DNA of 26,496 nucleotides from a virus, in IMG/VR virus record IMGVR_UViG_3300032053_000441, positions 1-26,496 of that record, one strand, 5' to 3'. The notes beneath the pieces were generated by a model that searched no databases, was not told where the DNA came from, and saw only the letters and a list, made by a program, of their open reading frames with translations. A program made the position numbers and the translations under genes. This document shows positions 1 through 20,940 of the stretch, piece by piece (position 1 is the stretch's first letter; every line of letters begins with the position of its first letter).

Positions 1-143
1 GGGGTCGGGCCCTTCCGGTCGCCCGGTATCCTGACAGCGCGGCCCTCCGGGGCAGCCATGAGTAGCCGAAAGGTGAAAGTGTCTTTACCCCGGGGGGGTT
101 GTTCGTTTGACGGTGACCCCCTTGATCTGCATCCTTACTTCCG
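1..143. other. Leader upstream of the tail-fibre gene, no convincing gene
   Basis: This is the non-coding start of the window. It is GC-rich, with short inverted G/C runs near 7-24 and 41-53 and a run of seven G at about 93-99. I see no clear promoter and no strong Shine-Dalgarno motif before the ATG at 144. A small ORF from the ATG at 58 runs about 88 bases into the fibre gene and is not accepted. Confidence 0.4.
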
Positions 144-3100
144 ATGGCGAACCCTATGGCAATCCCAAAAGTTTTCTCTGGCCGGGTTGGCACTCCAATC
201 AACTGGCCCGATGGCTCTTCCGGGGGAGGCATGAGTGGTCAGCTCACTGATGACCAACTCGACGCCCTGCTCGGAACGTCCGGCGCTCCGGCGGCGGGAA
301 ACAAGTTCGTCACCAACTCGGATTTCCGGCTGACGAATGCACGCACCCCGGGTGCGCACGCGCCTACGCACAAGGCTGGTGGCTCCGACCAGATTCTCCT
401 CGATGAGTTCGGCGCGCCACTCGATCGAACGCTCCTGGATGCCACGCCGGCCCGGCATGGGTTGCTTCCAAAGCTATCCGGGCAGGGGTGGCAATACCTC
501 GATGGATCCGGGGGGTGGTCGCAGCCGCCGGTCCCCGCAATCGTAGTTCCCACCGGAACGGGGTTCCGGCACGTGACCGCGGGGGTTGAGGACCCGGCCA
601 CCAAGCTCGTGGAGAATGCCGACGTCGCTGCCCTGGCGGCAATCGTGGAAGCCAAGCTCTCATTGAATTTTCCCACGCACGCGGAGAACCACGCCGCCCG
701 GCATCTTCTGGCCGGTGGTGATTCATTGCTGTTGACCAACAACGAGATCGCCGTCGGGGCCGCCATCGCTGAAGCGAAACTAAATCTGAATTTTGCGACG
801 CACGCAGAGAATCATGCTGCACGGCATGGCCCGGCCCCGGCCGCCGACCCACTGAGACTTGATGACCTGGAGGTTCCGCAGAATAATACGGACCTGAACG
901 CCTCGATCACCGCGCACGGGTTGTGTCCGTTGCTCTCGAACGTTGCCACGAATTTCTTGAATGGTGTCGGCGGCTGGACCGACCCTCCGGCTGGACTGCT
1001 GCTCTCAGGGAGCGCCTACGTCGTCATCGGGGGAAGCGCCAACAGCACCACCAACGGAACTGCGCTCGTGGCGGCCTACGCGGCAGCCACGGCGAAGACA
1101 CCACACGGGGCTGCACTGGCGGCGAACAACCGATACACGATCTATTTGCTGCCCGGGGTTTACACATTGACCTCGGCGGCACTTGTGATGTCAGCCCAGT
1201 TCATCGACCTGGTCGGCATCGGCGGAACGCCGCACAACATTATTCTAACCAGCAATGGCACAACGCTTTCTGCTTCGGGTAATGATCTCGTAATCGCGAA
1301 TCTGCGGATCCACACTTCGGTCGCTGGAGTTGCGACTTTGAACACCAACGACTATGCGTTTTATCCGACATCGGGGTTAACCGGTCATAAGTTGATCGGT
1401 GTGGTCTTCGATGCCGATGATCAGACGATCAATCGGGGGATGCGTTGCGGTGTCACATACGCAGGCATTTATATTGATTGCATCAGCGCCACCGACCGGG
1501 GTTTTGGTTGCTGGTGTGGCACAACGCCTGGGGTTGCCTCGGGATATTTTGTCAACTGCGAAGCCAACCGGATGGGATTCGGGATGGGTGTCGGGTCGGC
1601 ATCGGCGGTGGTGGGCACTGCGACTGGGGTATTCTGGAAGTGCCGGTGCTCGGGGGGCGGATTCGGGGGCAATGGTAATGCCAGCGGGACATTTACCTAC
1701 TGCCAGACTTGGTCAGCATTCCAGAACGCTTACGCGAACTGCCAGGCCACTGGGGACAGTGCTTGCTTCGGTGGGGGCAACACCGGGGCTGCTATTTCCG
1801 CCTCGGGGGTGTTCACCTTCTGCTCGTGCGCGTCCGGAGCTTCCTTCGGCTACAACATTCAGGCCAACGCCGGAGTGGCCTCGGGGACGTTCAAGGACTG
1901 CCATTCGGGAGCGATCCGTGCGTTTGGATCCACTTTGTTTTCTGGGACGGCCTATAACTGCACGGCACTGGGCACCTCGTTCGGGTCGGGAACCGGGTCT
2001 TCGATCACGGGCCAGTTGTTCAACTGCACGGCCTACGGCGATACGGCATTTGCTGGTGGAGGCGGGTCGATGTCGGCTGCGGCGGTGCTCTACAACTGCA
2101 TCGGACAGAATTACTGCTTCACCGGGCGCAACGGGGGCGCCGGGGGCGCCATCGCTGGCCTCCTGGTGAATTGTTCCGGAGTCTCGACGTGCTTCGCCTC
2201 GGGCACCTCCGGCGGGGCCATGTCGGGCACACTCTCCGGCTGTCGATGCTCGGCTGGTTTCAATCCCACTCTGACCGGGAACATCAGACTTTGCGATTTC
2301 CCGACCGGGAACGATAATCTGATTGTCACGGCGCTGAATCCGGCGGCCGACGTCACGGCGTTCACTTCGCAGGTGACTACGAACATTAACGCCGGGAGTG
2401 CGGTCGGATTCTACGGGGTGCTGGGGAGTGCGGTGCACTCGACGACGCAGGCGTTGACGATGAACGCCATGACGTCAGCCTACGCCCAGGCCGGGTTGGT
2501 CGGGTGCAAAGGAAACACCATGATCACCGCGGCCGCAACAGTCACTTCGGTCATCGGGTTTGGGGTGCAGAACTTGATTCGCGGCGGATGCACGGTGACG
2601 CACTGCATCGGGTTGCTTTCGACTCCTTTTTACAACGACTTAGGTGCCGGCAATACTGTGGATAGTGCCTATGGGTTGGTCGTGAAATCCTGCATGATCA
2701 ATGTCGGCGTCACCCTCAACAACGTTTACGGCATGTATCTGGCGGATCAGCAGTTCGGGACGAATCGTTGGGGTGTGTATCAGTTGGGAGCGACCAACAA
2801 AAATTACTTTGCCGGATGGGTGGGGCTCAATGTGGCACCCACCACGATGTTGCATCTGGTGGAAGCTCCGACGCTTACCGCAGTCACGAACATCACGTCG
2901 CAGGTTTTGGTTGCGCCGTCCCAGGCGGATAACACGGGCACCGATTACATTGCGCTCAAGATTCAGCAGAATACGGCGACGGCAAACAACTTCAGTGCTA
3001 CGGGTGCCGGTTATGGAATTGTGGGGGTGCTATGTCAGGCGGGTTCCGGCGCTGCCGGAGCTGGGACGCATTCGTTGATTACGGGGGCTTGGATCCGTTG

Positions 3101-4253
3101 TTTCAAGAATGGGGCGGGGGTTGTGGCGGAAATGAATGCACTGCACCTTCAGGTTCAGAACAACGTCGCCAACGCGCTTACGCTGTCTCGTTCGCTTTAC
3201 GTCGAAGCTCCGCAATTGGTCACTGGAACGATCGGGACCAATTATGGAATTTACATTGCTGATCAGAAACCCGCCGGGGTCACCACGGGCTATGGCGTTT
3301 ATCAACTCGGGACGACTTCTCTGAATTTGTTCCAGGGCCAGGTTATTTTGGGTGTCGCCAGTGGGGCGGGAGCGAACGGTCAGGCATTGGATAGTGGTCC
3401 GACTTCCACACTCACCGTTGGGACGTATCAGTGGGGCTCGGTTGTCCCCCTCTTCAATCCGGCGGGTGCTTCAAGTGCTACGTTTACGGGCATTTTCATG
3501 CAGCCTCAAACCACCGGGGCGCAGAATTTCAGTGGAACGATTACCGGGATCAATATGCAAGCCCTGCATTATGGCACAGGGTCCTGCACGCTGCTGGTGG
3601 GTGGGGACTTCGCCGTCCGAAAGGTGACCACCGGGGCGGTTACCAGCATGGTGGCGCTGCGAACATATTCCGTCAACGCCAATGCCACCGCACAGGTTGG
3701 GACGGCTTATGGGTTGTGGTGCCAGACGCCTCTGCTGATCGGTGTGGGTTTCATCACAACCAATTACGGCGTTTACATTGACGACCAGAAACCCGCCGGT
3801 GTTACGACAGGTTGGGGCATATATCAGATCGGCGCGACGACGTTGAACTATTATGCGGGCAAGGTTGGCGTTGCAATGTCCCCGGTAAACACGCTGGATG
3901 TCACGGGAACTTTTGGGGTGACCAGCACGGCGGCCATTGGGGGCGTGCTGACCATGTCGGCGGGGGTCGTTCATGCGATAGTGTCCTATTCGGCCGCCGG
4001 TGCGTTGGCAATTACCACAGCGCACTATTGCGTGCTGTGCGACACCACGGCGAATGATGTCACTTGTAATCTTCCGACTGCGGTGGGGATTACCGGGCGG
4101 GTCGTGGCCTTCAAGAAACTTGTCGCCGCGAACAACATGCGGATCATCCCCAACGGAGCGGAAACGATCGACGGAGCGGCAAACTACATCACGGCGGTCC
4201 AGTGGAATTCAGTGACCTTGATCTCCAATGGTGCCAACTGGTTCTTGATCTAA
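144..4253 (+). CDS. Large tail fibre/spike with beta-helix and three ~174-aa repeat modules
   Basis: This 1369-aa protein is most likely a trimeric receptor-binding fibre or spike. Residues 60-290 carry short phage-fibre modules: two copies of an 'HGL.P.LS...L.G.GGW..PP' motif and a 41-residue tandem repeat containing 'THAENHAARH'. From about residue 290 a pectate-lyase-like entry strand ('YLLPGVYTL') leads into a right-handed beta-helix-like stretch (about 440-710), in which an 'SG.f..C' rung recurs every 25-30 residues. Residues ~720-1250 contain three divergent ~174-residue modules, each ending in 'YG.Y..DQ...G...G.YQ.G' (motifs near 859, 1032 and 1206). The last 65 residues match the common fibre end 'LP.A.GITGR...KK......I.PNGAETIDGA'. 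No catalytic residues for a depolymerase could be assigned. The ATG at 144 is the first plausible start. Confidence 0.88.
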   Translation: MANPMAIPKVFSGRVGTPINWPDGSSGGGMSGQLTDDQLDALLGTSGAPAAGNKFVTNSDFRLTNARTPGAHAPTHKAGGSDQILLDEFGAPLDRTLLDATPARHGLLPKLSGQGWQYLDGSGGWSQPPVPAIVVPTGTGFRHVTAGVEDPATKLVENADVAALAAIVEAKLSLNFPTHAENHAARHLLAGGDSLLLTNNEIAVGAAIAEAKLNLNFATHAENHAARHGPAPAADPLRLDDLEVPQNNTDLNASITAHGLCPLLSNVATNFLNGVGGWTDPPAGLLLSGSAYVVIGGSANSTTNGTALVAAYAAATAKTPHGAALAANNRYTIYLLPGVYTLTSAALVMSAQFIDLVGIGGTPHNIILTSNGTTLSASGNDLVIANLRIHTSVAGVATLNTNDYAFYPTSGLTGHKLIGVVFDADDQTINRGMRCGVTYAGIYIDCISATDRGFGCWCGTTPGVASGYFVNCEANRMGFGMGVGSASAVVGTATGVFWKCRCSGGGFGGNGNASGTFTYCQTWSAFQNAYANCQATGDSACFGGGNTGAAISASGVFTFCSCASGASFGYNIQANAGVASGTFKDCHSGAIRAFGSTLFSGTAYNCTALGTSFGSGTGSSITGQLFNCTAYGDTAFAGGGGSMSAAAVLYNCIGQNYCFTGRNGGAGGAIAGLLVNCSGVSTCFASGTSGGAMSGTLSGCRCSAGFNPTLTGNIRLCDFPTGNDNLIVTALNPAADVTAFTSQVTTNINAGSAVGFYGVLGSAVHSTTQALTMNAMTSAYAQAGLVGCKGNTMITAAATVTSVIGFGVQNLIRGGCTVTHCIGLLSTPFYNDLGAGNTVDSAYGLVVKSCMINVGVTLNNVYGMYLADQQFGTNRWGVYQLGATNKNYFAGWVGLNVAPTTMLHLVEAPTLTAVTNITSQVLVAPSQADNTGTDYIALKIQQNTATANNFSATGAGYGIVGVLCQAGSGAAGAGTHSLITGAWIRCFKNGAGVVAEMNALHLQVQNNVANALTLSRSLYVEAPQLVTGTIGTNYGIYIADQKPAGVTTGYGVYQLGTTSLNLFQGQVILGVASGAGANGQALDSGPTSTLTVGTYQWGSVVPLFNPAGASSATFTGIFMQPQTTGAQNFSGTITGINMQALHYGTGSCTLLVGGDFAVRKVTTGAVTSMVALRTYSVNANATAQVGTAYGLWCQTPLLIGVGFITTNYGVYIDDQKPAGVTTGWGIYQIGATTLNYYAGKVGVAMSPVNTLDVTGTFGVTSTAAIGGVLTMSAGVVHAIVSYSAAGALAITTAHYCVLCDTTANDVTCNLPTAVGITGRVVAFKKLVAANNMRIIPNGAETIDGAANYITAVQWNSVTLISNGANWFLI

Positions 4254-6179: not shown

Positions 6180-6343
6180 AGGCCAAGATTTCATTCTTGG
6201 CCACGCGCTGCTGGGTGCATCTTCAGCGGCGCTTCGATTGGTTCCCCGGTGTGCCGGGCAGTATTTTGAACGGATGGCTGCCCCGGTATTCCCGTCAGTG
6301 TGAATTTTCAGGACCCCTTCGTCGCGCTGTGTGCTCAGCATAG
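6176..6343 (+). CDS. Possible 55-aa ORF with GTGA overlap, before the terminase
   Basis: This frame fills the otherwise empty 150 bases between the 210-aa gene and the terminase. Its GTG at 6176 overlaps the preceding TGA as GTGA, a coupling arrangement like others in this block, and its stop at 6343 lies 13 bases inside the terminase. The product is basic and aromatic ('RRFDWFPGVPG', 'GWLPRYSRQCEF'), without a recognisable domain. It is too short for a small terminase. The 8-bp hairpin at 6181-6202 lies within its first codons, which could mean regulation or that this is not coding. Confidence 0.4.
   Translation: MKAKISFLATRCWVHLQRRFDWFPGVPGSILNGWLPRYSRQCEFSGPLRRAVCSA
6181..6202. repeat. 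Perfect 8-bp hairpin just after the 210-aa gene
   Basis: GGCCAAGA and TCTTGGCC are exact reverse complements separated by six bases (TTTCAT), starting two bases after a stop codon. No T-run follows, so it is not a typical intrinsic terminator. It could be an RNA processing or stability element upstream of the terminase, or part of the possible 55-aa ORF. Confidence 0.5.
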
Positions 6344-8232
6344 AAAAGGTCGGGGCACCTTTTCGTGAAGTCATTGATCGGACTTCCGAGGCGCTGCACA
6401 AGGGCGGGGACTCGGTTCAGGCCGCGCGCCTCGCGCTTCATATTCTTGGACAGACCGCCCGGATAGATCGTCCCGACCAGGCACAGAAGACGCTTCAGGC
6501 GCTCCTCCATTGGTGTCTGAGTGAAGACCACTACGCCGACGCTGCGCAGCTCTGTTGGTCTCCCACTCTCTTCACTTCTGAGCCGGCCTGCACCCGGGCG
6601 GTTTGGAATGCCCTTGATGAATCCAGCGGATTGATCGTGATGGGTGGGGCCTCGATGTCCAAGTCCTATGGTTGCGGCGTGTATTTCATGCTCGACTGGG
6701 CTGTCGATCCCGAATATACGACCGTGAAAGTCCTGGGTCCGTCCGAACAGCACCTTCAAGACAATTTGTTTTCTCACCTGATTGAACTGCATCGCCGGTC
6801 AGCGATCAAACTTCCAGGCAAGGAAGGTGACTTGTTCATTGGATTGGACTTTCGGCAGCGAAGGTCTTCGATTTCGGGTGTAGTCATTCCGCTGGGAAAG
6901 AAACCCGCCGGTCGGCTTCAGGGTGCCAAGCGGTTCCCCCGGGAGGTGGCGCACCCCAAGTTCGGGGTTCTTTCCCGGATGAGGATTCTGCTGGACGAGG
7001 CTGAGAACATTCCAGCGGGCATCTGGTCGGATATTGACAACGTGCTCTCGAATTCTGAGGGCAACATGGGGTTGAAAATTGCTTGTGCATTCAACCCGAA
7101 GAACCCGGCGCTGCCTTTGGGCATCCGCGGTGAGCCGGTCAATGGTTGGGCGACATTCGACAAGGACAAAGATTGCACCTGGATTTCTTCACGCAACTGG
7201 CGGGTGGTCAGGCTTGACGGCGAGAAATGCGAGAATGTGGTTCAGAAGAGGATTTTATATCCCGGACTTCAGACAGAAGAAGGTCTGTTGAAGCTTGCTG
7301 AATCGTCCGGCGGTATGACTTCGGCATCCTACATGACTTTCGGGCGAGGGTGCTACCCCACTGAGGGAGTGGCGTTTTCGGTGATCCCGATGTCGGTGCT
7401 CAACAAGATCAAGGGCACTTTTATTTGGGAAGGGATCCCGCGGCCGGTGGGCGGCGCCGACCTGGCGCTGGAGGGTGGCGACCGGGCGGTTCTGGCTACC
7501 GGTTTGTGGGGAACTGCGGTGGGCATGATTCTGCCTCCGTCTTTGCTCAACCCAAAGGGGTTGAGGGTTGATTTTAAGAATGCCCAGGGGCGGCCCCGCG
7601 CGCGCTTCGCGCTGCAAGGCACCGGATTCTTGACGTTGGAGCGCGGGGAAACTGTGTCAATGGCCAGGCAGGTCAAGCGAGTGTGTCTTGAGCTTGGGAT
7701 TGATCCGGACTGGGTTTGCCTGGATCGAACGGGCCACGGGGCTGGCGTGCACGATCTGGTGAAGGAGATTTGGAGCGATCAGGTGATCGGGATCAACTAT
7801 TCGGAGTCTGCCACCGAAATGAAGATCATGGAGGAGGACACAGATCGCGCGATTGACGAATACGATCGGATTTACAGCGAATTGTGGTTTGCGCTGAAAC
7901 GGTGGGCCGAGTTCGACATCGTGAAGCTTCTTCCGACGGTGGATCTCACCAAGAACGATCTCACGCAGCAACTTGCCGGCCGCACATTTGATCCCAAGCT
8001 CAGGAAAAAGCTCGACACCAAGCGCGAATTTAAGATGGCGCACGGTGGGCTGTCCCCGGACGATGCCGATGCGCTTACGCTCATGGTGCACGCGGTCCGT
8101 CGGTCGTCGGGAGGATACACTCCAACGGGTGTTCCTGCGCTTCAAACTTCGGAGTCTGAACGGGAAGATCAAGCGTGCCCCTGGATTGAAGACGCCACCT
8201 CGGAGAGAGACTCGATGGATTCGGTGGATTGA
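6331..8232 (+). CDS. terL: Large terminase subunit (DNA-packaging ATPase/nuclease)
   Basis: This is the ATP-driven motor and headful or site-specific nuclease that packages DNA through the portal. In 633 aa, the ATPase domain has a variant P-loop 'GGASMSKSYG' (about 105-114, Ser in place of the usual Gly before Lys), a Walker B 'ILLDEAE' (D222, E223) and a coupling motif 'ACAFNPKNP' (251-259). The RNase H-like nuclease domain has acidic metal-site candidates at D377 ('GGADLAL'), D465 ('VCLDRTG') and D577/D578/D580 ('LSPDDADAL'). An in-frame TGA at 6301 leaves the GTG at 6331 as the best start, with no clear Shine-Dalgarno site. The ~100 residues before the P-loop are longer than in many terminases. 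No small subunit was identified nearby. Confidence 0.93.
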   Translation: MLSIEKVGAPFREVIDRTSEALHKGGDSVQAARLALHILGQTARIDRPDQAQKTLQALLHWCLSEDHYADAAQLCWSPTLFTSEPACTRAVWNALDESSGLIVMGGASMSKSYGCGVYFMLDWAVDPEYTTVKVLGPSEQHLQDNLFSHLIELHRRSAIKLPGKEGDLFIGLDFRQRRSSISGVVIPLGKKPAGRLQGAKRFPREVAHPKFGVLSRMRILLDEAENIPAGIWSDIDNVLSNSEGNMGLKIACAFNPKNPALPLGIRGEPVNGWATFDKDKDCTWISSRNWRVVRLDGEKCENVVQKRILYPGLQTEEGLLKLAESSGGMTSASYMTFGRGCYPTEGVAFSVIPMSVLNKIKGTFIWEGIPRPVGGADLALEGGDRAVLATGLWGTAVGMILPPSLLNPKGLRVDFKNAQGRPRARFALQGTGFLTLERGETVSMARQVKRVCLELGIDPDWVCLDRTGHGAGVHDLVKEIWSDQVIGINYSESATEMKIMEEDTDRAIDEYDRIYSELWFALKRWAEFDIVKLLPTVDLTKNDLTQQLAGRTFDPKLRKKLDTKREFKMAHGGLSPDDADALTLMVHAVRRSSGGYTPTGVPALQTSESEREDQACPWIEDATSERDSMDSVD

Positions 8233-8864: not shown

Positions 8865-9109
8865 TTCTTCCAAATCCATTCAAATTTGTCGCAGCGATGG
8901 CCCGGGTGGCCAGGTTGTTTATTTTGGGGGAGGACATATTTGCGCCCGTTTGGATGGCGAAATACCGTGCTCGGGTTTGCCGCAGTTGTGCGTTCTACGA
9001 AGCTGGGCAATGCTCCAAGTGCACTTGTTTTGTTGGGTTGAAGTCGATTCTTCGTTCAGAATCCTGTCCGATAGGGCACTGGGGACGACTTGACACGAGG
9101 CTGTTCTAA
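8861..9109 (+). CDS. Small zinc-ribbon-like protein (82 aa)
   Basis: It starts at an ATG overlapping the preceding stop (ATGA at 8861-8864); a longer frame from 8840 is less likely. The N-terminal 35 residues form a basic, hydrophobic helix ('FVAAMARVARLFILG'). They are followed by 'CRSC' (C40, C43), 'CSKCTC' (C51, C54, C56) and 'SCPIGHW' (C69). The CxxC...CxxCxC...CP.G.W pattern is a common zinc-binding signature among small phage proteins. It resembles the C-terminal half of the upstream gene, suggesting duplication. Function is unknown. Confidence 0.75.
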   Translation: MILPNPFKFVAAMARVARLFILGEDIFAPVWMAKYRARVCRSCAFYEAGQCSKCTCFVGLKSILRSESCPIGHWGRLDTRLF

Positions 9110-9128
9110 CCGCTTACTTACTACCACG

Positions 9129-11273
9129 ATGCCCGCTGACAAAGTCACTGTTGCCAATACTGGTGCGACCCCGGGGGAACTACTCAATTCTCCTGATTAT
9201 GATCCCACCAAGAAGCTCCCCAAACAGCCGCCGGTGCGCGCCATTAAGGATGCGAAGCAGGCCGCCCAGGTGGTCACTACGGTCATCAACGCGTCCCGGG
9301 AACGGAACACAAAGAATGCCCGGGTTCAGGCAAAATATAATGCAGAGCGGCCGTTCAAGCAGACTCGGCTGGATACAGACGGTCTTGGGTGGAAAACGAA
9401 CATCACCACCAATCCGCTTTCGATGATCGTGGACAAGATCGCCCCTCGGTTTGAGCGGGCGTTGTCCTCGGCCAAGTATTTGACCAGTTCTTCGTTGCCG
9501 GCTACGGTTCCCGGCGCCTCGAAAAAGAACGAGGAGTTCCAAAAGGAGATCACGCAACTTTGTCGGCAGAAGGCGGGTTGGTCGGAGTTGGTCGGTGATG
9601 TCGCTCAGGAGAATGCTTTGTTCGGGTTTACGTCGTTGGGGAATCTCGAAGAGTGGTCTTGGTATCCGACGCATTTTCGTCAGGATCGGTTTTTCGTTCC
9701 CCCGTTGTCCAAGCAGGATGCCGACGAATCTCAACTCATTGTCTGGACTGAATTGTTCATGCCGAATCAGCTTGTCGAGATTCTGTCGGATAGAGAGGCG
9801 GCTGTGGATGCCGGTTGGAAATACGAGAATGCGGTTCGGGCTGTCAATTTTGCTTTGCCGATAAATCAGCGTTCGATGAATAGCGACACTTCCCGGATAT
9901 GGGAGGATCTCACTCGTGAATCGAATCTGGCTGCGGCTTACGCAGACAGCGCGCGGATGGTGGAACTTTACTCGATTTTGGTAAAAGAGACCAGTGGGAA
10001 GATCACGCATTGGCGGTTGAGCCGAACACCGGCGACAGCCGAATGGGCGTTGGTATTTCAACGCAACGATCGGTTTGAAAAGTTCAGTGACATCGCTACG
10101 TTTTTCTCTTTCCAAAAAGCCAACGGAACGATGCATGGATCCAAGGGTGTTGGCCGGTTGGTCTATGATACGGCTGCGGTGATTGACAAGGCCCGGTGCG
10201 AGGTAATCGACCGATTGCAGCTTTCCGGTAAGATTTTACTCACGAGTGATGAGAAGCAGATCAAACGATTCCGGATGTCGATGTTTGGCAACGCTATTTT
10301 GATCGGCTCAGCCTACCAGGTCCAACAGCAGACTATCACCCCGCACACCGAAGAGTTTTTTGCGCTTGATCAGTTCCTCACGAGTTTGATCGACCAACAG
10401 GTGGGGAATGTGAGTCCTCGAATGTTCACCGGAGACCGGGTCACCAAGGCCCAGGTGGATTTGTTCGCTTCTCGTGAGGAGGAGTCGAAGGACACTCCGA
10501 TCATGCGATTTTTGATGCACTGGTCCAAGGCGATTTCAACCATTCAGCGCCGGGCGTGCTCGAAGGATTGCGATGAAGCTGATGCCCAGGCGATGCGTAA
10601 GCGTCTGTTGGCCATTATGTCTGAAGAGGAGCTTGAGCAGTTGGCCAATACGCCATCTGCCATGGTCGTCCAAGATTTGACCGGGCTTGATCGCCAGCAG
10701 ATTATTCTCATAGCTCAGGAGAATCAGGGGAATCCGTTGGTGAATCAGGTCGAATTGAAGCGCCGTCAATTGACCGCTCAAATGGGGGCCGACTTCGCCG
10801 AGGCCGTTCTCAATCCGGTGAACGATCCCACTCAACTTGCTGAGCAGACCCGGATGCAAGAGATCGAGAATATTTTGTTGCAGATCGGTAAACCCGTCCC
10901 GGTGAGCCCCCGGGATAATCACTTGATCCATATCGAATCCGTGATGAAGGTGATCGACGAAATGGTGCCGACTCTTGTGGACGACACCTCGAAGGTGCCG
11001 GTGGTTGAAATTGCGATTGACCATGTCGTGGCGCACGCGCAAATGACACTTGCCACCGGAGAGAAGATTCCGGAAGTTCAGGCTGCTTTGTCCAAAGTTC
11101 AGACCCTCAAAACCCGTATCGCTGCTCTGATGGCGCACGAGAAAGCAATCCAGGAAGGCCTGGGAGCGAACCTCGACGCCGACCAGGCGCTCGCGGCGGG
11201 TGCCGGTGCCGCAGACCCCCTGCTGGCTCCGGATGCGTCGGCGGTGCCTGCGCCCGTCGGTGCGGGGATCTGA
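9129..11273 (+). CDS. Portal protein (head-tail connector)
   Basis: This 714-aa protein is assigned as the dodecameric portal at the capsid vertex through which the terminase pumps DNA. Support comes from its size, its place after the terminase and before the scaffold and capsid genes, and portal-like sequence. There is an early segment 'NPLSMIVDKIAPRFERAL', a beta-rich middle with 'HWRLSRTP', a helical stretch with 'SPRMFTGDRVTKAQV', and a long helical C-terminal region (about 450-680) ending in an Ala/Pro-rich tail. The length fits podovirus-type portals with a long C-terminal barrel. The ATG at 9129 is chosen over the in-frame TTG at 9090, which would overlap the previous gene by 20 bases. 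Neither has a strong Shine-Dalgarno site. Confidence 0.85.
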   Translation: MPADKVTVANTGATPGELLNSPDYDPTKKLPKQPPVRAIKDAKQAAQVVTTVINASRERNTKNARVQAKYNAERPFKQTRLDTDGLGWKTNITTNPLSMIVDKIAPRFERALSSAKYLTSSSLPATVPGASKKNEEFQKEITQLCRQKAGWSELVGDVAQENALFGFTSLGNLEEWSWYPTHFRQDRFFVPPLSKQDADESQLIVWTELFMPNQLVEILSDREAAVDAGWKYENAVRAVNFALPINQRSMNSDTSRIWEDLTRESNLAAAYADSARMVELYSILVKETSGKITHWRLSRTPATAEWALVFQRNDRFEKFSDIATFFSFQKANGTMHGSKGVGRLVYDTAAVIDKARCEVIDRLQLSGKILLTSDEKQIKRFRMSMFGNAILIGSAYQVQQQTITPHTEEFFALDQFLTSLIDQQVGNVSPRMFTGDRVTKAQVDLFASREEESKDTPIMRFLMHWSKAISTIQRRACSKDCDEADAQAMRKRLLAIMSEEELEQLANTPSAMVVQDLTGLDRQQIILIAQENQGNPLVNQVELKRRQLTAQMGADFAEAVLNPVNDPTQLAEQTRMQEIENILLQIGKPVPVSPRDNHLIHIESVMKVIDEMVPTLVDDTSKVPVVEIAIDHVVAHAQMTLATGEKIPEVQAALSKVQTLKTRIAALMAHEKAIQEGLGANLDADQALAAGAGAADPLLAPDASAVPAPVGAGI

Positions 11274-11696: not shown

Positions 11697-13163
11697 ATGC
11701 CTGAAAAAACTACTCCCGTCAGAGACGAGCCGGTTATCACAGAGGTTCCTGTTGAGCATACAGGAACGGTAATTGTTGAGGACGCCGGCCAGAAACGATT
11801 GACTTTTCAACGGGCCGATGTTGCGCTCGACGAACTCATGGCGGCGAGGCAGAAGAAGGAGGATGACGATGAGGGGGCAGCGGCTAAGAAGGCTGCGGAT
11901 GAAAAAGAGGCTGCTGAAAAGGGGGTTGCCGGTAAAGCGGCCGACAAGCCGGTCGTGGATGCTGGAGCTGCGACTGCGGGCGATCTAGCAACGCAAGGCG
12001 ACGCGCAGGGTGCCACGGGTGCCCAAGCAACGCCGGGCGAAGGGCAGGTTGACGCAGTCGTAGCTCCAGCAGTCACAGATGATCTTGTTGCAGATCCCGA
12101 GTTCCTCAAAAAAGTTGAGGAAATAAAACTTCCGCCGCATTCGCGTCCGGCTTCCGCCGAGGCGTTTGCTACGGTCAAAGAAATGGGTCGGCAGGAGGTT
12201 GAGCGGATTTCCAAGCGCGCGCGGGCACTGGCGGAAGAGGTTGCTGCGTCTAAAGCGTCGGCTGCGGAAGCTGCGGCGAAAGCGGCGCAGGTTCCTCCGG
12301 AGATTTTGAAGGAGGTTGAGGAACTGCGAAATTTCCGGGCTGCGCTCGATGTGGATAATACGCCGCAGGTGAAGGCCGTGACGGAAAAAATCACCGCGAA
12401 TGAAGAGCGGGTATTTAGCTTGCTTCGGGAAAATGGGATGTCCGATGACGGCCTCAAGCAGATCAAGGAAGAACTCGGTGGCGTTGCAAAGGTTGATTGG
12501 TCTTCGGTGTTGGCGAAACTCGACGCAACCGCGGCTGACGATTTGAAATCGTTGGTTTCGGAGGCGCGGATACTTGGTCGGGATCAGGTTGAGGCAGCCA
12601 AGAAAGCTCGGGCAAACGCTTCGGAGTTTGTGAAGGCTCAGGAACAAGCAGAGATCAAGCGGCAGCAATTGGTTTCTCAATCCCGGGCGACGGCTGCGGA
12701 CGTTCTTCTCGCCAAGATTGACCATGCGCGAGAGGTCGATGTGGCGAAAGTTTCCGAGGTTGACCGGCCAACCGCTATTATTCGCAATGCAGCGGCAAAA
12801 AAGATCCGCGAACGTGTGGCTGCGGCGTTGTCCGATACGTCTCCGGATATGCACGCCACCCTGGCCGTAGGGTCTGCGCTGGCGTTTGTTTATGCGGAGC
12901 AAAATGATGGGCTCACCAAACGGCTGGCCACGATTGAGACGGCGCACAAAGCCGCGCTGGTTGCGATGCAGAAGGAACGAGATACTGCGGTGGCGCAGCT
13001 CGATCGGATTCGGAAAGCTTCGCGGGGAAGCCGGGTTGACGATCCTAATCGGTCGGTGCGTAAACCGGTTGATGCCGGTGGAGAATACAAGTTCGGGGTG
13101 CGGTCTTCGCAAGCTCTCGATCAGCTTGCTGAACAGGTAACTGCGGAACGCAATTCAGCATGA
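11697..13163 (+). CDS. Probable capsid scaffolding protein, coiled-coil
   Basis: This 488-aa protein is very rich in Ala, Glu, Lys, Asp and Gln. Residues 55-130 are low-complexity and probably disordered ('KKEDDDEGAAAKKAADEKE'). Long heptad-like helices follow (about 160-210 and 300-350, then 400-445), and the basic C-terminus ('RGSRVDDPNRSVRKP') could bind the capsid shell. This composition and the place between portal and major capsid genes fit an internal scaffold that directs procapsid assembly and is then lost. No protease motif is evident. It starts three bases after the preceding stop and ends in an ATGA overlap with the glycosyltransferase gene. Confidence 0.75.
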   Translation: MPEKTTPVRDEPVITEVPVEHTGTVIVEDAGQKRLTFQRADVALDELMAARQKKEDDDEGAAAKKAADEKEAAEKGVAGKAADKPVVDAGAATAGDLATQGDAQGATGAQATPGEGQVDAVVAPAVTDDLVADPEFLKKVEEIKLPPHSRPASAEAFATVKEMGRQEVERISKRARALAEEVAASKASAAEAAAKAAQVPPEILKEVEELRNFRAALDVDNTPQVKAVTEKITANEERVFSLLRENGMSDDGLKQIKEELGGVAKVDWSSVLAKLDATAADDLKSLVSEARILGRDQVEAAKKARANASEFVKAQEQAEIKRQQLVSQSRATAADVLLAKIDHAREVDVAKVSEVDRPTAIIRNAAAKKIRERVAAALSDTSPDMHATLAVGSALAFVYAEQNDGLTKRLATIETAHKAALVAMQKERDTAVAQLDRIRKASRGSRVDDPNRSVRKPVDAGGEYKFGVRSSQALDQLAEQVTAERNSA

Positions 13164-14143
13164 CCTTGGCAGAATTAGTCGTTCGTAAGGTGGTTGAAAT
13201 GGGAGACGAAGCCGCCTCCCAGTTCTTCAGGCATTGTCTTGTTGCGGTTAAACAGTGGAGGATGGGATCTCGTGCGGTTCCTGCGTCTGCGCTGGAGAGA
13301 ATGTATGCAGCGTTGAACAGCAATCCGGTTCCTGAAATTCTTGAAGGGAACTGGGAAGGACGCAAGGTTGCGATGCTCCTGCCTTGGTATAAACAGGTGA
13401 ACCCGGTGACGGCGTTTTGCCTCATGGGGCTGTTCAATCCCGCGACGATGCGGGTTTTTATGTCCTGCCAGGATGCGTTCATTGCTCATACTAGAAACAC
13501 ACTTTCCAGAATGTTTCTCAATTCACCGTGCGAGTGGGCGGTGATGTTTGACAATGACATGGTTTATCCATTTGGGTCTTCGGTCTTTTTTAACGGTATC
13601 ACGCGATTTGAGTTTTCTGAAGAATTTGCTGGGGCCAGAACGATTCACCGGTTGATGTCTCATGGGAAATCTCTCGTCGGTGGACTTTATTTTGGGCGCA
13701 ATGAAGATGGAAAACCGATGTTTAGTGAAGGACTTTCTGATCCGGAAATAACTGCGCTGGTCCACAAGGGCCCCCAAAATAAGTTGATGGCGACTCGATG
13801 GGTGGCGACGGGGTGTCTGTTAATTCATCGAACGGTTTTTGAGGACATCAACAAAAAATATCCGGATCTCGGGGATCATTGGTTTACACCTTCAGAAGCG
13901 GACTTGCTTGAATCTGTGAAGACCGTTCGGTCCATGCTCGGGAAATTTCCTGATCAAGAGATTGACCGATTTTTGGCTTCTGCGGTGGAGCAAACGCAGC
14001 ACAATTCAAAACCTGGTTCGGGGGAGGATGTGACTTTTTGCATTCGCGCCGGGCTTGCCGGGCATCAACCGCACGTGGACCTTGGTTTGGTTTGCGGGCA
14101 TATTGGAGACGCTGTTTATGGGCCTTTCAACACCCGTTCGTAA
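13160..14143 (+). CDS. Glycosyltransferase-like (GT-A) protein with HTH-like N-terminus
   Basis: This 327-aa protein starts in an ATGA overlap with the scaffold gene. Residues 68-320 look like a GT-A nucleotide-sugar transferase: an opening strand 'VAMLLPWY' (70-77), a DXD-type metal motif 'MFDNDMV' (D131, D133), 'VATGCLLIHRTVF' (215-227), and 'GEDVTFCIRAGLAGH' (E289, D290) followed by H314, which resembles the acceptor/metal end of GT2-type enzymes. Residues 5-50 look like a Cro/XRE-type helix-turn-helix ('AASQFFRHCLVAVKQW' followed by 'ALERM'), although this is weaker. It would transfer a sugar to an unknown acceptor (protein, DNA or surface glycan). Position between scaffold and capsid genes is unusual. 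Confidence 0.75.
   Translation: MTLAELVVRKVVEMGDEAASQFFRHCLVAVKQWRMGSRAVPASALERMYAALNSNPVPEILEGNWEGRKVAMLLPWYKQVNPVTAFCLMGLFNPATMRVFMSCQDAFIAHTRNTLSRMFLNSPCEWAVMFDNDMVYPFGSSVFFNGITRFEFSEEFAGARTIHRLMSHGKSLVGGLYFGRNEDGKPMFSEGLSDPEITALVHKGPQNKLMATRWVATGCLLIHRTVFEDINKKYPDLGDHWFTPSEADLLESVKTVRSMLGKFPDQEIDRFLASAVEQTQHNSKPGSGEDVTFCIRAGLAGHQPHVDLGLVCGHIGDAVYGPFNTRS
14105..14110 (+). promoter_or_regulatory. Shine-Dalgarno site for the second glycosyltransferase
   Basis: GGAGAC lies seven bases before the ATG at 14118, inside the end of the preceding gene. It decides the start over the longer frame from 14055. Confidence 0.5.
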
Positions 14144-15002
14144 AAGTGTTAACGCGGGGTGCAAGTGCCTCGATCCTCGCGCGCTGAAGGTGGCCCGCCC
14201 GAAAGGTGTTCCTGAGTCCAAATTGATGATCGCGATGCAGTATTGGGACGGGGATAAAGGGCAGGCTGAAAAGTTTCTTCGGTTGATTACGGATATGCAG
14301 GAGGGTTATTCGACCGAAGCGGGGGTCATGATTTCGGCCAGGTTTGATTCGTCGATTGACGAAAAACTTGTGGAATACGTATCCCGAAAATTTCCGGTGG
14401 TGACGCTCGTTGGTCGGCGGAGAGGGACGGGTTGGCCATTTGGATGCAACGAGGTTTGGTTTGAGACGATGTTGTGGCTTTTCGGGCAAAGACGTTCGGG
14501 CAGACTCTTGGAATATAAGGCGGCACTCACGCTGGAGGCGGATGATGCCCCGCTGGCAAAGGATTGGATCAAGCGGCTTTCCGATGCGTTTGATGCCGCC
14601 CGACCGGCACACGTAATCGGGCATTTGCATTCATGGGATCGCATGAATGACCAGCGAAAAATTGCGTCGTTCCATTGCAATGGGAACGCATTGTTTGCGC
14701 TTTCGCCAGAATTGGAACGAGTTCTTGTCGCTCGGCAGGGAGTTCCTGCGAACTCTCCATGGGATTGTCACATGGCGCCTGCGTTCAAAAAGCTTGGCTG
14801 GTTTAGCACTCCGGCAGTTCGGTCGATCTATAACACAAAGGGTCTTAAATTGAAAACTTTTGCATGGATGCGGGATCGAGGCGGTGCGTTTGTGCATGGG
14901 GTGAAGGATGATTCTGCATTTGAGATCGCGCGGAGACTTTATGTTGGGACGCCGGTTGACAGCACACTATCGGCTGCGCATAATACAGAGGTCGAGAACT
15001 AA
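14118..15002 (+). CDS. Second glycosyltransferase-like (GT-A) protein
   Basis: From the ATG at 14118 the product is 294 aa and overlaps the first glycosyltransferase by 26 bases. It opens after a basic segment with the strand 'LMIAMQYWDGDKGQAEKF' (37-54). A second strand is 'FPVVTLVGRR' (92-101). An acidic metal-site candidate is 'LTLEADDAPL' (E140, D142, D143), and near the end 'WDCHMAPAFKKLGW' resembles the acceptor loop of GT2-type enzymes. I see no signal peptide. It is probably a GT-A enzyme working with its neighbour, for example adding successive sugars. The canonical DXD is only partly kept (EADD), so an inactive or divergent enzyme is possible. Confidence 0.65.
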   Translation: MGLSTPVRKSVNAGCKCLDPRALKVARPKGVPESKLMIAMQYWDGDKGQAEKFLRLITDMQEGYSTEAGVMISARFDSSIDEKLVEYVSRKFPVVTLVGRRRGTGWPFGCNEVWFETMLWLFGQRRSGRLLEYKAALTLEADDAPLAKDWIKRLSDAFDAARPAHVIGHLHSWDRMNDQRKIASFHCNGNALFALSPELERVLVARQGVPANSPWDCHMAPAFKKLGWFSTPAVRSIYNTKGLKLKTFAWMRDRGGAFVHGVKDDSAFEIARRLYVGTPVDSTLSAAHNTEVEN

Positions 15003-15127: not shown

Positions 15128-16375
15128 ATGGGTGCTATTTGCAATGAACCCGATGCCCTAAGCGACATCGCGGTCAAAGATACCAATCGTCTCGTCGGTC
15201 GAATCGCGGAATCGCTCGCGATGAACGCCGTGTTCATCAACGTCCTTGATGGTGGGACTTTCGCGTCCGGGCTATCGGACACCGTCCGTTCTGCGGTCAG
15301 TATGCCCGCGGCTCCCGGTGATTCGCTCGCGATCCCCACGTTCATGAACGATACCGCTGTTTGCGGCACCGATGGGATCCAGGATCTCACGGGCACCATT
15401 GAGTTCCAATACTCGCTTCAGACGAAGCGCGGTCGTGGCCCTCGTGTGTGCATGAAGAAAGGTTACGCTGCTTATCGGGACAGCTACCTACAGGCCGAAA
15501 ATTCGTTGGTGAAACTGATTGTTCAGTATATCAACGCGGACGTTCGGGCCCAGTTGTATCTGAACAGCGCCTCGAAATTCAATGCCGCGAAGGGCTATTG
15601 TTTTGAGGATTTGTTCACCGGTGGCAATCCTACGGACATCGGCGTGCAGTTTGCGCAGGTGCTTCCGACTGGTCCGGTGAGCTTCAAGGCTCTTCAAACT
15701 CTGAACCGGTATATGCGAGAGGCCCTCCTGGCTGAACCGTTCTCCGGTGAAGGCAAGGGGCAGCCGCATTGCAAAGTCATCGGCTCCGCCGAGATCATCG
15801 ACGCGTTCCGTGAGGAATCCGGAGTGAAGGAGAATATGCTGGCGTTGACCGCCGGTGGCTATCAGATCGGTGAGAACACGTTGACCGCCTATTCCTGGGA
15901 GACTTCCCCGGCGTATCGCGGCATCGCGTTCGGCACAGATCAGTCCCCGCTTCGCGCCACTGGTTTCGACCAGAACGGTGATCTGAACCTTGTGGATCCC
16001 CGCCTTGTGGTTGCCGACCCGGCTACCAACACGGCCTACAGCATCGTGAATCCTGCGTGGCTCACGGCGCCCTATGAACTCCTGTTCGTGCTCTACATGG
16101 ACAGCTTCCGCCGGCTGGTGCCGGAAAAGTATGTCGGCGAGGGTTCGTTCAAGTTCGCGCCGCAACTCGTTTCCGGTGAGTTGATCTGGCACTACCTCCT
16201 GGACAACGACTGCAATTTGTGGGGGGATTACGGGTTCCACAAATATCAGATCACCCGGGCCTATCAGCCTGTGCGGCCGATGCACGTAGTTCCTGTCCTC
16301 TACCGTCGGTGCAAGTCTGACCTGGGGCTCGAAGATTGCGTTTCGACCAGTTGCCCCGTCCTTGGTGAGCTGTAA
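15128..16375 (+). CDS. Major capsid protein (probable)
   Basis: This 415-aa protein is called major capsid by context. It follows scaffold-like genes, has its own leader and Shine-Dalgarno site, ends at a strong terminator-like hairpin, and uses C/G-ending codons more consistently than the surrounding genes, as expected for high expression. The sequence has an N-terminal helix segment, an extended strand region around 'FQYSLQTKRGRGPRVCMKKGY' (about 92-112), a long helix ('SLVKLIVQYINADVRAQLYL', about 125-145) and a beta-rich C-terminus. That layout is compatible with an HK97-type fold, but I cannot show the fold from sequence alone. Cys105, Cys390, Cys398 and Cys403 could matter for capsid stability. 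Confidence 0.7.
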   Translation: MGAICNEPDALSDIAVKDTNRLVGRIAESLAMNAVFINVLDGGTFASGLSDTVRSAVSMPAAPGDSLAIPTFMNDTAVCGTDGIQDLTGTIEFQYSLQTKRGRGPRVCMKKGYAAYRDSYLQAENSLVKLIVQYINADVRAQLYLNSASKFNAAKGYCFEDLFTGGNPTDIGVQFAQVLPTGPVSFKALQTLNRYMREALLAEPFSGEGKGQPHCKVIGSAEIIDAFREESGVKENMLALTAGGYQIGENTLTAYSWETSPAYRGIAFGTDQSPLRATGFDQNGDLNLVDPRLVVADPATNTAYSIVNPAWLTAPYELLFVLYMDSFRRLVPEKYVGEGSFKFAPQLVSGELIWHYLLDNDCNLWGDYGFHKYQITRAYQPVRPMHVVPVLYRRCKSDLGLEDCVSTSCPVLGEL

Positions 16376-19140: not shown

Positions 19141-20940
19141 ATGAGCTGTAATTGCAACGGTAGCGGGTGCGCGGGGTGCTGTGGGACGTCCACATTGAGC
19201 CCATGCACCGTTTGTGCCCCCAACACAGCGGCAAACGAGACGCTTTCGAGTGTGCTCGACAATTTCATCGCGTCGTTCTTTGGGGAATTGACGAAAACCG
19301 AGGTGAACGGCGTTGTAATTTGGGTTTTGCCATGCGACCTCAATGTGGGACTCCAGAATAATCCCCGGCTGACCGATGAGGGGTTGGCGTGCTACTTTCT
19401 GCGACTTTTTGAGGATGGGATCACCGGGCTTACGGGACCGCGCGGGTTTAAGGGTGATGCGGGCACCGATGGCGCCAGTGGAGTTTGCTTTTTGACTTCG
19501 GCGTTCACACAACCGACGGATTTGTGTCCGGACATTACGATCACTGTGGATAATCCGGATCTGCTCGCGCCTGAAATGTATATTTGGATCCCCGGTTCCG
19601 GGTATTATCAGGTCGTGCAGGTTGTTGGAGACGTTGTGACAATCACGTTGATTGCTGCGATCTTGAGTCCGAATCCAACCACTCCGATTGACACCCCGGT
19701 CATTCCGGCCGGCGCGCGGGGTGAGACGGGGATTCAGGGACTCGTTGGTCCAGATGGTCCTCAAGGTCTGCAAGGAAATCCTGGTAATAACGGTTCTAAC
19801 GGAGCAAATGGAACCTCGGTTCAAGCATACTTGGAGACAACTTTTACGATTCCTGCGGTGAACGCCGAATCTGCGGCTCCCATCGAGATTGATGTGAGTT
19901 TGGGGTCATTTGGTTTGATCGGGGCTACTCAAGGGCAGTGGGTGTGGGTTGAGGGAGCCGGTTATTTTCAGGTGACTACGTGGACCAGTGCTACGCAATT
20001 CAAACTGACGAATCCGTTGGGGTATTTTACCAACGAGACTCCGGGAACAGTGGTAGGTATAGGTGCGATGATTCTTGCGATGCCACCTCCGTCCCCCTCA
20101 GAATTGGATACGCAGACGGTCAAATCTACGGTTCGGGCGTGCTCGGCTGGAGATGGTAATCGGGGTTTGAATGGCGCAGACACAATCGACGGCGTCGTGA
20201 TGGCCAACGGGGATCGGGTATTGATAACGGCACAGACGGATTCGACAAAAAATGGGATCTATGTGGTCAATACTGCGGGTGTTTGGACCCGTGCGACGGA
20301 TTGCAACAGCGTTGCCACGATGTTTCCCGGGATCATGGTCCCCGTTGGTTACAATTTAACCGCTACCCGGTTCAATAATACGGTTTGGACCCTTATGTGG
20401 GATATGGCGAGTCAGTTCGATGTCGGCACTGATGACGCATTTTTCTACATGACGAATGCGTTTTTGCCAGCGTATGCGTCGGTCGGGTATCAAGGGCATA
20501 TCGGAGGTAACCCTGTTCAAACATGGCAAGCCAACGATACCTGGAAAACAATTTACAATAATGCGTTAGGGACATACTTTGATGCGGGACGCGTGCTCAA
20601 CATAACTCCCGTGCTTCAAAGCACGCACCCAGTTCCCAAGGTGGAAATTGTTTTGGCGGGGGACTATCTTTGCTCGTTTTCTGCGGAGGCTTATCGAGTA
20701 ACAGCAAATGCGGATCGGGTCGAATTGGGAATTCTTCTGAACGGCGCAGTCGATGCCGGTGGTGGTGTGTGCGGCGGTCAGTTGGATACGGACTACGATA
20801 TTAGTTTAACACTTTCTGGACAGGTGATTCTCCAGAATCTTCAGACCGGGGATGAGGTCGAGTTGATGTCCAGAAACCGATCTGGCAATCGGGTATTCAA
20901 CCTCCGGAATGTCACCTTTACGATTCACCGGGTATTCTAA
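19141..20940 (+). CDS. Collagen-like tail/head fibre protein
   Basis: This 599-aa fibre has a cysteine-rich N-terminus (seven Cys in the first 25 residues: C3, C5, C10, C13, C14, C22, C25), unusual for a fibre. Two collagen-type Gly-X-Y stretches (about 93-114 and 191-226) are each followed by a similar beta module: 'MYIWIPGSGYYQVV' (146-159) and 'QWVWVEGAGYFQVT' (266-279). A common phage-fibre module follows, with 'NGIYVV' (371-376) and 'WTRATD' (382-387). The C-terminal ~100 residues look like a C1q/TNF-type head ending in 'NVTFTIHRVF'. It is probably a trimeric fibre on the tail or head. AAAGG lies a few bases before the ATG. Confidence 0.85.
   Translation: MSCNCNGSGCAGCCGTSTLSPCTVCAPNTAANETLSSVLDNFIASFFGELTKTEVNGVVIWVLPCDLNVGLQNNPRLTDEGLACYFLRLFEDGITGLTGPRGFKGDAGTDGASGVCFLTSAFTQPTDLCPDITITVDNPDLLAPEMYIWIPGSGYYQVVQVVGDVVTITLIAAILSPNPTTPIDTPVIPAGARGETGIQGLVGPDGPQGLQGNPGNNGSNGANGTSVQAYLETTFTIPAVNAESAAPIEIDVSLGSFGLIGATQGQWVWVEGAGYFQVTTWTSATQFKLTNPLGYFTNETPGTVVGIGAMILAMPPPSPSELDTQTVKSTVRACSAGDGNRGLNGADTIDGVVMANGDRVLITAQTDSTKNGIYVVNTAGVWTRATDCNSVATMFPGIMVPVGYNLTATRFNNTVWTLMWDMASQFDVGTDDAFFYMTNAFLPAYASVGYQGHIGGNPVQTWQANDTWKTIYNNALGTYFDAGRVLNITPVLQSTHPVPKVEIVLAGDYLCSFSAEAYRVTANADRVELGILLNGAVDAGGGVCGGQLDTDYDISLTLSGQVILQNLQTGDEVELMSRNRSGNRVFNLRNVTFTIHRVF

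Follow-up and report, generated by a model that had tools for sequence, protein, structure and literature searches.

A predicted helix-turn-helix glycosyltransferase encoded between putative scaffold and capsid genes in a lineage of uncultured phages

Described phage glycosyltransferases and related folds

Glycosylation of phage virions is already known, and glycosyltransferases (GTs) of the GT-A type are common in phages. The T4 alpha- and beta-glucosyltransferases are GT-B enzymes, which act on hydroxymethylcytosine in DNA. They resemble the enzyme described here in being phage sugar transferases (PMC13216743), but the latter is a predicted GT-A enzyme, and its relatives lack the base-hydroxymethylation genes that were searched for. 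In mycobacteriophages, including Che8, Corndog, and Myrna, capsid and tail-tube proteins are glycosylated by phage-encoded GTs (PMC12363180). The present lineage is similar in that its genes point to such glycosylation; the available part of that source describes neither a fusion to a helix-turn-helix (HTH) domain nor a GDP-sugar island between scaffold and capsid genes.

The GT-A core is defined by the DXD, xED, G-loop, and C-His elements; the xED carries the catalytic base of the inverting enzymes (PMC7185993). The same GT-A motifs are found in PHROG 1574, a family of unknown function; its matches to the members P0004 and P0005 reach 8e-35 and 8e-36. A distant relative of the GT adjoins the capsid gene in the Microcystis phage Mel-JY34 and in a prophage-like plasmid of Ca. 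Promineifilum breve. The distant phage and plasmid GTs that were compared share 18-24% identity with the enzyme, and none of them carries an HTH at its N-terminus. Only in the lineage described here were the fusion and the location between scaffold and capsid observed. No description of an HTH-GT fusion or of a scaffold-capsid glycan island was found in the open-access literature. What appears to be new is the joining of HTH and GT, probably an ancestral arrangement, and the glycan island that occupies the scaffold-capsid interval.

The fused gene and its predicted domains

The window, 26,496 bases long, is a virus record in IMG/VR and is itself a fragment. The HTH-GT gene (P0001) occupies positions 13160..14143 on the plus strand and encodes 327 residues. 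Its start codon forms an ATGA overlap (13160..13163, plus strand) with the preceding putative scaffold gene, whose TGA stop lies at 13161-13163, and the two genes might be translationally coupled. The coordinates, frame, and overlap of the original prediction were exact. The GT-A catalytic core spans residues 68-320 (13361..14119, plus strand), with D131-D133 as the DXD, E289-D290 of G288-D290 as the xED, and G218 and H314 as the G-loop and C-His, the last two assigned by motif order. R112, D131, D133, G218, D290, and H314 are invariant in comparison with six distant phage and plasmid GTs. Among 44 closer relatives, D131/D133, E289, D290, G218, and H314 are all invariant. The 327-residue ORF is hit by the PHROG 1574 profile at 4e-7 and, weakly, by two PHROG glycosyltransferase families; the Pfam search of the ORF gave no match.

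The AlphaFold2 model was built with the 44 homologues and has a mean pLDDT of 93, with most of the GT core above 90 (single-sequence AlphaFold reached a pLDDT of 34 only). Known GT-A enzymes made up most of the 46 matches that Foldseek returned from the PDB at E<=1e-3. The top ones were the collagen lysyl hydroxylase/glucosyltransferase LH3, STIV A197, ColGalT1, Mnn9, and ppGalNAc-T. The best matches among viral models were GTs of uncultured phages. The nearest solved structures (LH3, ColGalT1, and ppGalNAc-T) are largely protein-glycosylating. These are eukaryotic secretory-pathway enzymes that share the GT-A fold at about 10% identity, and a TM-score of about 0.4-0.45 makes the modelled likeness a weak guide to the acceptor. 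The motifs and the model together point to a metal-dependent GT-A glycosyltransferase with an N-terminal Cro/CII-like HTH. The GT-A core had been proposed at residues 68-320 with D131/D133, GED at 288-290, and H314, and the invariant motifs and the model bear this out.

Because the best matches in both Foldseek searches are GTs and tell little about the HTH, this domain was tested by sequence. It covers residues 3-53 (13166..13318, plus strand), close to the predicted 5-50, and consists in the model of helices 3-14, 16-23, 27-35, and 42-53 at pLDDT 92-97. Helices 16-23 and 27-35 form the HTH, with a conserved W33. The original prediction would have failed if residues 1-65 had folded into the GT core or been disordered; four confidently modelled helices were found instead. 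They are followed by a flexible linker, residues 54-64 (13319..13351, plus strand), with pLDDT blocks of about 59-62. The N-termini of nine relatives matched almost exclusively HTH families in Pfam (best 0.0038-0.008). The HTH-family profile found XPH1, P22 Cro, and BldC-like DNA-binding proteins among PDB sequences at E about 1. With hhalign, the profile scored 28.0 with P22 Cro, 24.7 with lambda CII, 18.7 with P22 C2, and 17.3 with P22 C1; lambda CI and lambda Cro gave no score. In a background of 150 random segments the highest score was 29.2 and the next 13.6. The segment scoring 29.2 is a GT of the same family that probably overlaps the end of the HTH profile. The N-terminus of the window protein alone matched nothing in Pfam or the PDB and is too diverged to do so, hence the assignment rests on the family and the model. 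The four-helix bundle of the Cro/CII type is seen in the model of the whole protein, and sequence homology at the family level. The domain shares with P22 Cro and lambda CII the four helices, the aligned HTH register, and the conserved tryptophan, but it is fused to an enzyme and is mostly neutral to acidic.

The domain is under strong purifying selection. Its dN/dS among the HTH bearers is about 0.07-0.10, as low as that of the GT core (0.06-0.08), and the linker appears relaxed, with a dN/dS of 0.78 in the single pair where it was computable. The HTH was found in 12 loci: the window, L266, L241, L221, L223 (nearly identical to L221), L251, L208, L264, L118, L054, L034, and L218. In most relatives in the lineage the GT occupies the same position but lacks this domain. 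The orthologue search thus found the enzyme both with and without the domain. The fusion of a DNA-binding-like domain to a sugar transferase is as unusual as had been supposed. The HTH bearers are paraphyletic and often basal in both the GT tree and the capsid tree, which is consistent with one ancient fusion followed by several losses. Either tree requires four changes to account for this pattern; the well-supported branches demand at least three in the GT tree and at least two in the capsid tree. The HTH is therefore probably ancestral and was lost several times, with some tree placements resting on long branches.

The scaffold-capsid interval in the lineage

The close relatives were retrieved with hand-made DNA patterns for WxxxxDxDM and GEDVxFC. 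The tblastn searches and automatic pattern scans with the window GT, terminase, portal, and capsid against phages, viral_contigs, and genome_contigs gave no useful match. A capsid alignment identified 349 relatives in viral_contigs, of which 80 were kept; together with one MAG contig they form a sample of 81 loci. Several members are represented by contigs of about 70-76 kb. One member, L208, lies in a MAG contig labelled Candidatus Peribacteraceae, a label that may be a binning error.

The gene order common to most relatives is terL, g8229, g8840, portal, scaffold, GT, g14118, and capsid. In the window, all on the plus strand, the large terminase (6331..8232) is recognised by phrog_2 (E=1.9e-9). 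No library recognises the putative portal (9090..11273), scaffold (11697..13163), and major capsid (15128..16375) proteins, so these names rest on position and conservation: the portal on position and synteny, the scaffold also on its composition, and the capsid on a protein 59-63% identical to those of the closest lineage members. The g14118 gene (14118..15002, plus strand) is probably a second GT-A-like enzyme as judged by motif inspection, with RFD at residues 75-77, ExD at 140-142, HxNGN at 186-190, WD at 215-216, and HG at 260-261. Its R75, D77, E140, D142, N188-N190, W215-D216, and H260-G261 are invariant. Database searches with g14118 returned no match that names it, and profile comparison gave no support for its being a homologue of the HTH-GT. 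A tandem pair of ORFs matching g14118 occurs in one HTH-bearing virus (L221:4190-5838). At the start of the window (144-4253), a 1369-residue repeat-rich protein with recurring 'NYGIYIADQKPAGVTTGYGVYQ'-like motifs is probably a tail or surface protein.

The GT is present in 67 of the 81 loci. The contigs of the other 14 extend less than 6 kb beyond the capsid gene on its upstream side, ending within about 4.2 kb of it, so the place of the GT was probably cut off. In every sampled locus with a long enough contig, the GT lies between scaffold and capsid. The original prediction had called the gene not a standard virion gene. For this lineage that is wrong, as the GT belongs to the scaffold-capsid block and is conserved there.

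The interval between the GT and the capsid gene is variable in content. A GDP-mannose dehydratase and/or a GDP-fucose-synthase-like epimerase is found there in 27 of 69 distinct loci, and sulfotransferases, methyltransferases, and extra GT-like ORFs (with a sequence like FLxNDADS) also occur. Representatives matched GDP_Man_Dehyd (6.7e-136), Epimerase (1.6e-58), Sulfotransfer_3 (2.4e-28), Methyltransf_24 (4e-7), and Methyltransf_11 (5e-6) in Pfam; the extra GT-like ORF tested against Pfam had no match. The L238 contig starts within the interval (89-4156) and reads GDP-mannose-dehydratase-like, GDP-fucose-synthase-like, two GT-like ORFs, a small ORF, and capsid. Its genes were named by inspection of the sequences and by similarity to the Pfam-confirmed representatives. 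Island genes between scaffold/GT and capsid were also observed in L031, L257, L262, L281, and L288. In L034 and a few HTH-less loci, the GT almost adjoins the capsid gene. The position of the GT is fixed and the content of the interval varies; the GT is therefore the one constant gene, and the first, in a glycan island of variable make-up.

GDP-sugar genes are absent from the interval in the window and in all 10 HTH loci among the 69, whereas 27 of the 59 loci without HTH carry them; in the HTH loci the interval, where filled, contains mainly g14118. The island argument therefore derives from the HTH-less relatives. The association of the HTH with a minimal island is phylogenetically confounded, and no functional claim is attached to it. 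UDP-galactopyranose mutase was considered as a shared source of sugar donor and rejected, as it was found in only 1 of 24 records. This gene (PF03275) lies at 38431-39063 of G001, the record of L218, which also encodes a TnpB/Cas12f-like protein. G002, the record of L221, encodes a dATP/dGTP diphosphohydrolase (PF18909, 1.7e-33) and a member of the nucleoside 2-deoxyribosyltransferase family. These two enzymes possibly modify the nucleotide pool; no PurZ was seen among the Pfam matches listed for G002.

Possible acceptors and the role of the helix-turn-helix domain

The lineage encodes its GT together with the virion genes, and a sugar-gene island between scaffold and capsid suggests that sugars are attached by these phages to their own particles. 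The best explanation, to which a probability of roughly 0.5 is assigned, is that the HTH-GT primes the glycosylation of a virion protein, that island enzymes of the relatives extend the glycan, and that the HTH positions the enzyme. The enzyme would transfer the first sugar to a structural protein during particle production; the constancy of its gene points to this priming role. The mycobacteriophage GTs that act on capsid and tail-tube proteins are a precedent for such an activity. The acceptor would most likely be the co-expressed capsid or another late virion protein. In many relatives, the downstream GTs, GDP-sugar-forming enzymes, sulfotransferases, and methyltransferases would supply donors and extend and decorate the glycan. 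The probably ancestral HTH would serve as a docking or oligomerisation module that places the enzyme, which takes up the docking domain offered as one option in the original prediction.

Alternatively, the HTH might be a working DNA-binding domain that recognises a site in the phage's own genome and thereby autoregulates the late operon or holds the GT at the packaging DNA; virion proteins would still be the target of the GT. The match of its fold to P22 Cro and lambda CII, the strong purifying selection, and a W..GSK(P) pattern similar to canonical HTHs, which is mostly retained across the bearers, are consistent with this role. However, the net charge of the domain ranges from -3 to +2 and is -3 to 0 in 8 of 11 bearers, which gives DNA binding no support, although a neutral or acidic charge is compatible with specific binding. 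Most relatives keep the GT in place without the HTH, and the profile found no free-standing copy of the domain, as a separate repressor gene would be, in 24 related records. This role is regarded as possible but tentative.

The synthesis of surface polysaccharides also typically involves GDP-fucose enzymes, sulfotransferases, and methyltransferases. During infection, the GT and the island might act on the host surface and alter its O-antigen, capsule, or receptor, for instance as a defence against superinfection. Phage GTs that alter the host serotype are known (PMC12619734). However, all loci that are complete enough have the GT between scaffold and capsid, a position that implies late expression alongside the virion proteins; a host-surface role is thus considered unlikely. 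Somewhat more doubtful still is a combined scheme, in which the GT is the invariant priming enzyme of the island and the HTH binds phage DNA or nucleoprotein, so that glycosylation occurs at the assembling, packaging capsid, with HTH-less lineages targeting the enzyme otherwise.

The substrate might also be a collagen-like (Gly-X-Y) fibre protein, as LH3 and ColGalT1 act on collagen. These collagen GTs are the best Foldseek matches. Gly-X-Y repeats are present in the window (19141-20940) and in 40 of the 81 capsid-sampled lineage loci, compared with 1 of 161 non-lineage loci. However, only 1 of 43 earlier-fetched lineage loci has such repeats, though most of them keep the GT, and no lysyl-hydroxylase-type dioxygenase was seen among the Pfam matches (1e-5) of two HTH genomes. 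The case for collagen as an obligatory substrate is weakened by those members whose fetched stretch has the GT but no collagen repeats, and such a substrate is considered very unlikely. Both the host surface and the collagen-like fibre fit the data less well than virion-protein glycosylation.

Sugar transfer to DNA, with the HTH bringing the GT to its substrate as the original prediction had suggested, is highly improbable: the fusion itself and the known DNA-modifying phage GTs (T4, PMC13216743; others cited in PMC12619734) speak for it, but the HTH is mostly neutral to acidic and absent from most relatives, the gene lies within the structural block, none of 24 related records has a thymidylate-synthase-type hydroxymethylase or a Tet/JBP match above the Pfam cut-off (one sub-threshold match reached 11 bits), and no base-hydroxymethylation gene was found among the Pfam matches for most ORFs of two HTH genomes.

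The sugar coats of phages affect antibody recognition, and perhaps stability and adhesion, yet measurements exist for just a few of them. In this lineage the stretch from scaffold to capsid gene seems to be set aside for sugar enzymes, of which one GT is constant. Virion glycosylation can thereby be predicted, and tested, for many uncultured phages. With its unusual architecture, the HTH-GT fusion also lends itself to the question of how a phage might steer a transferase to the correct protein, and when.
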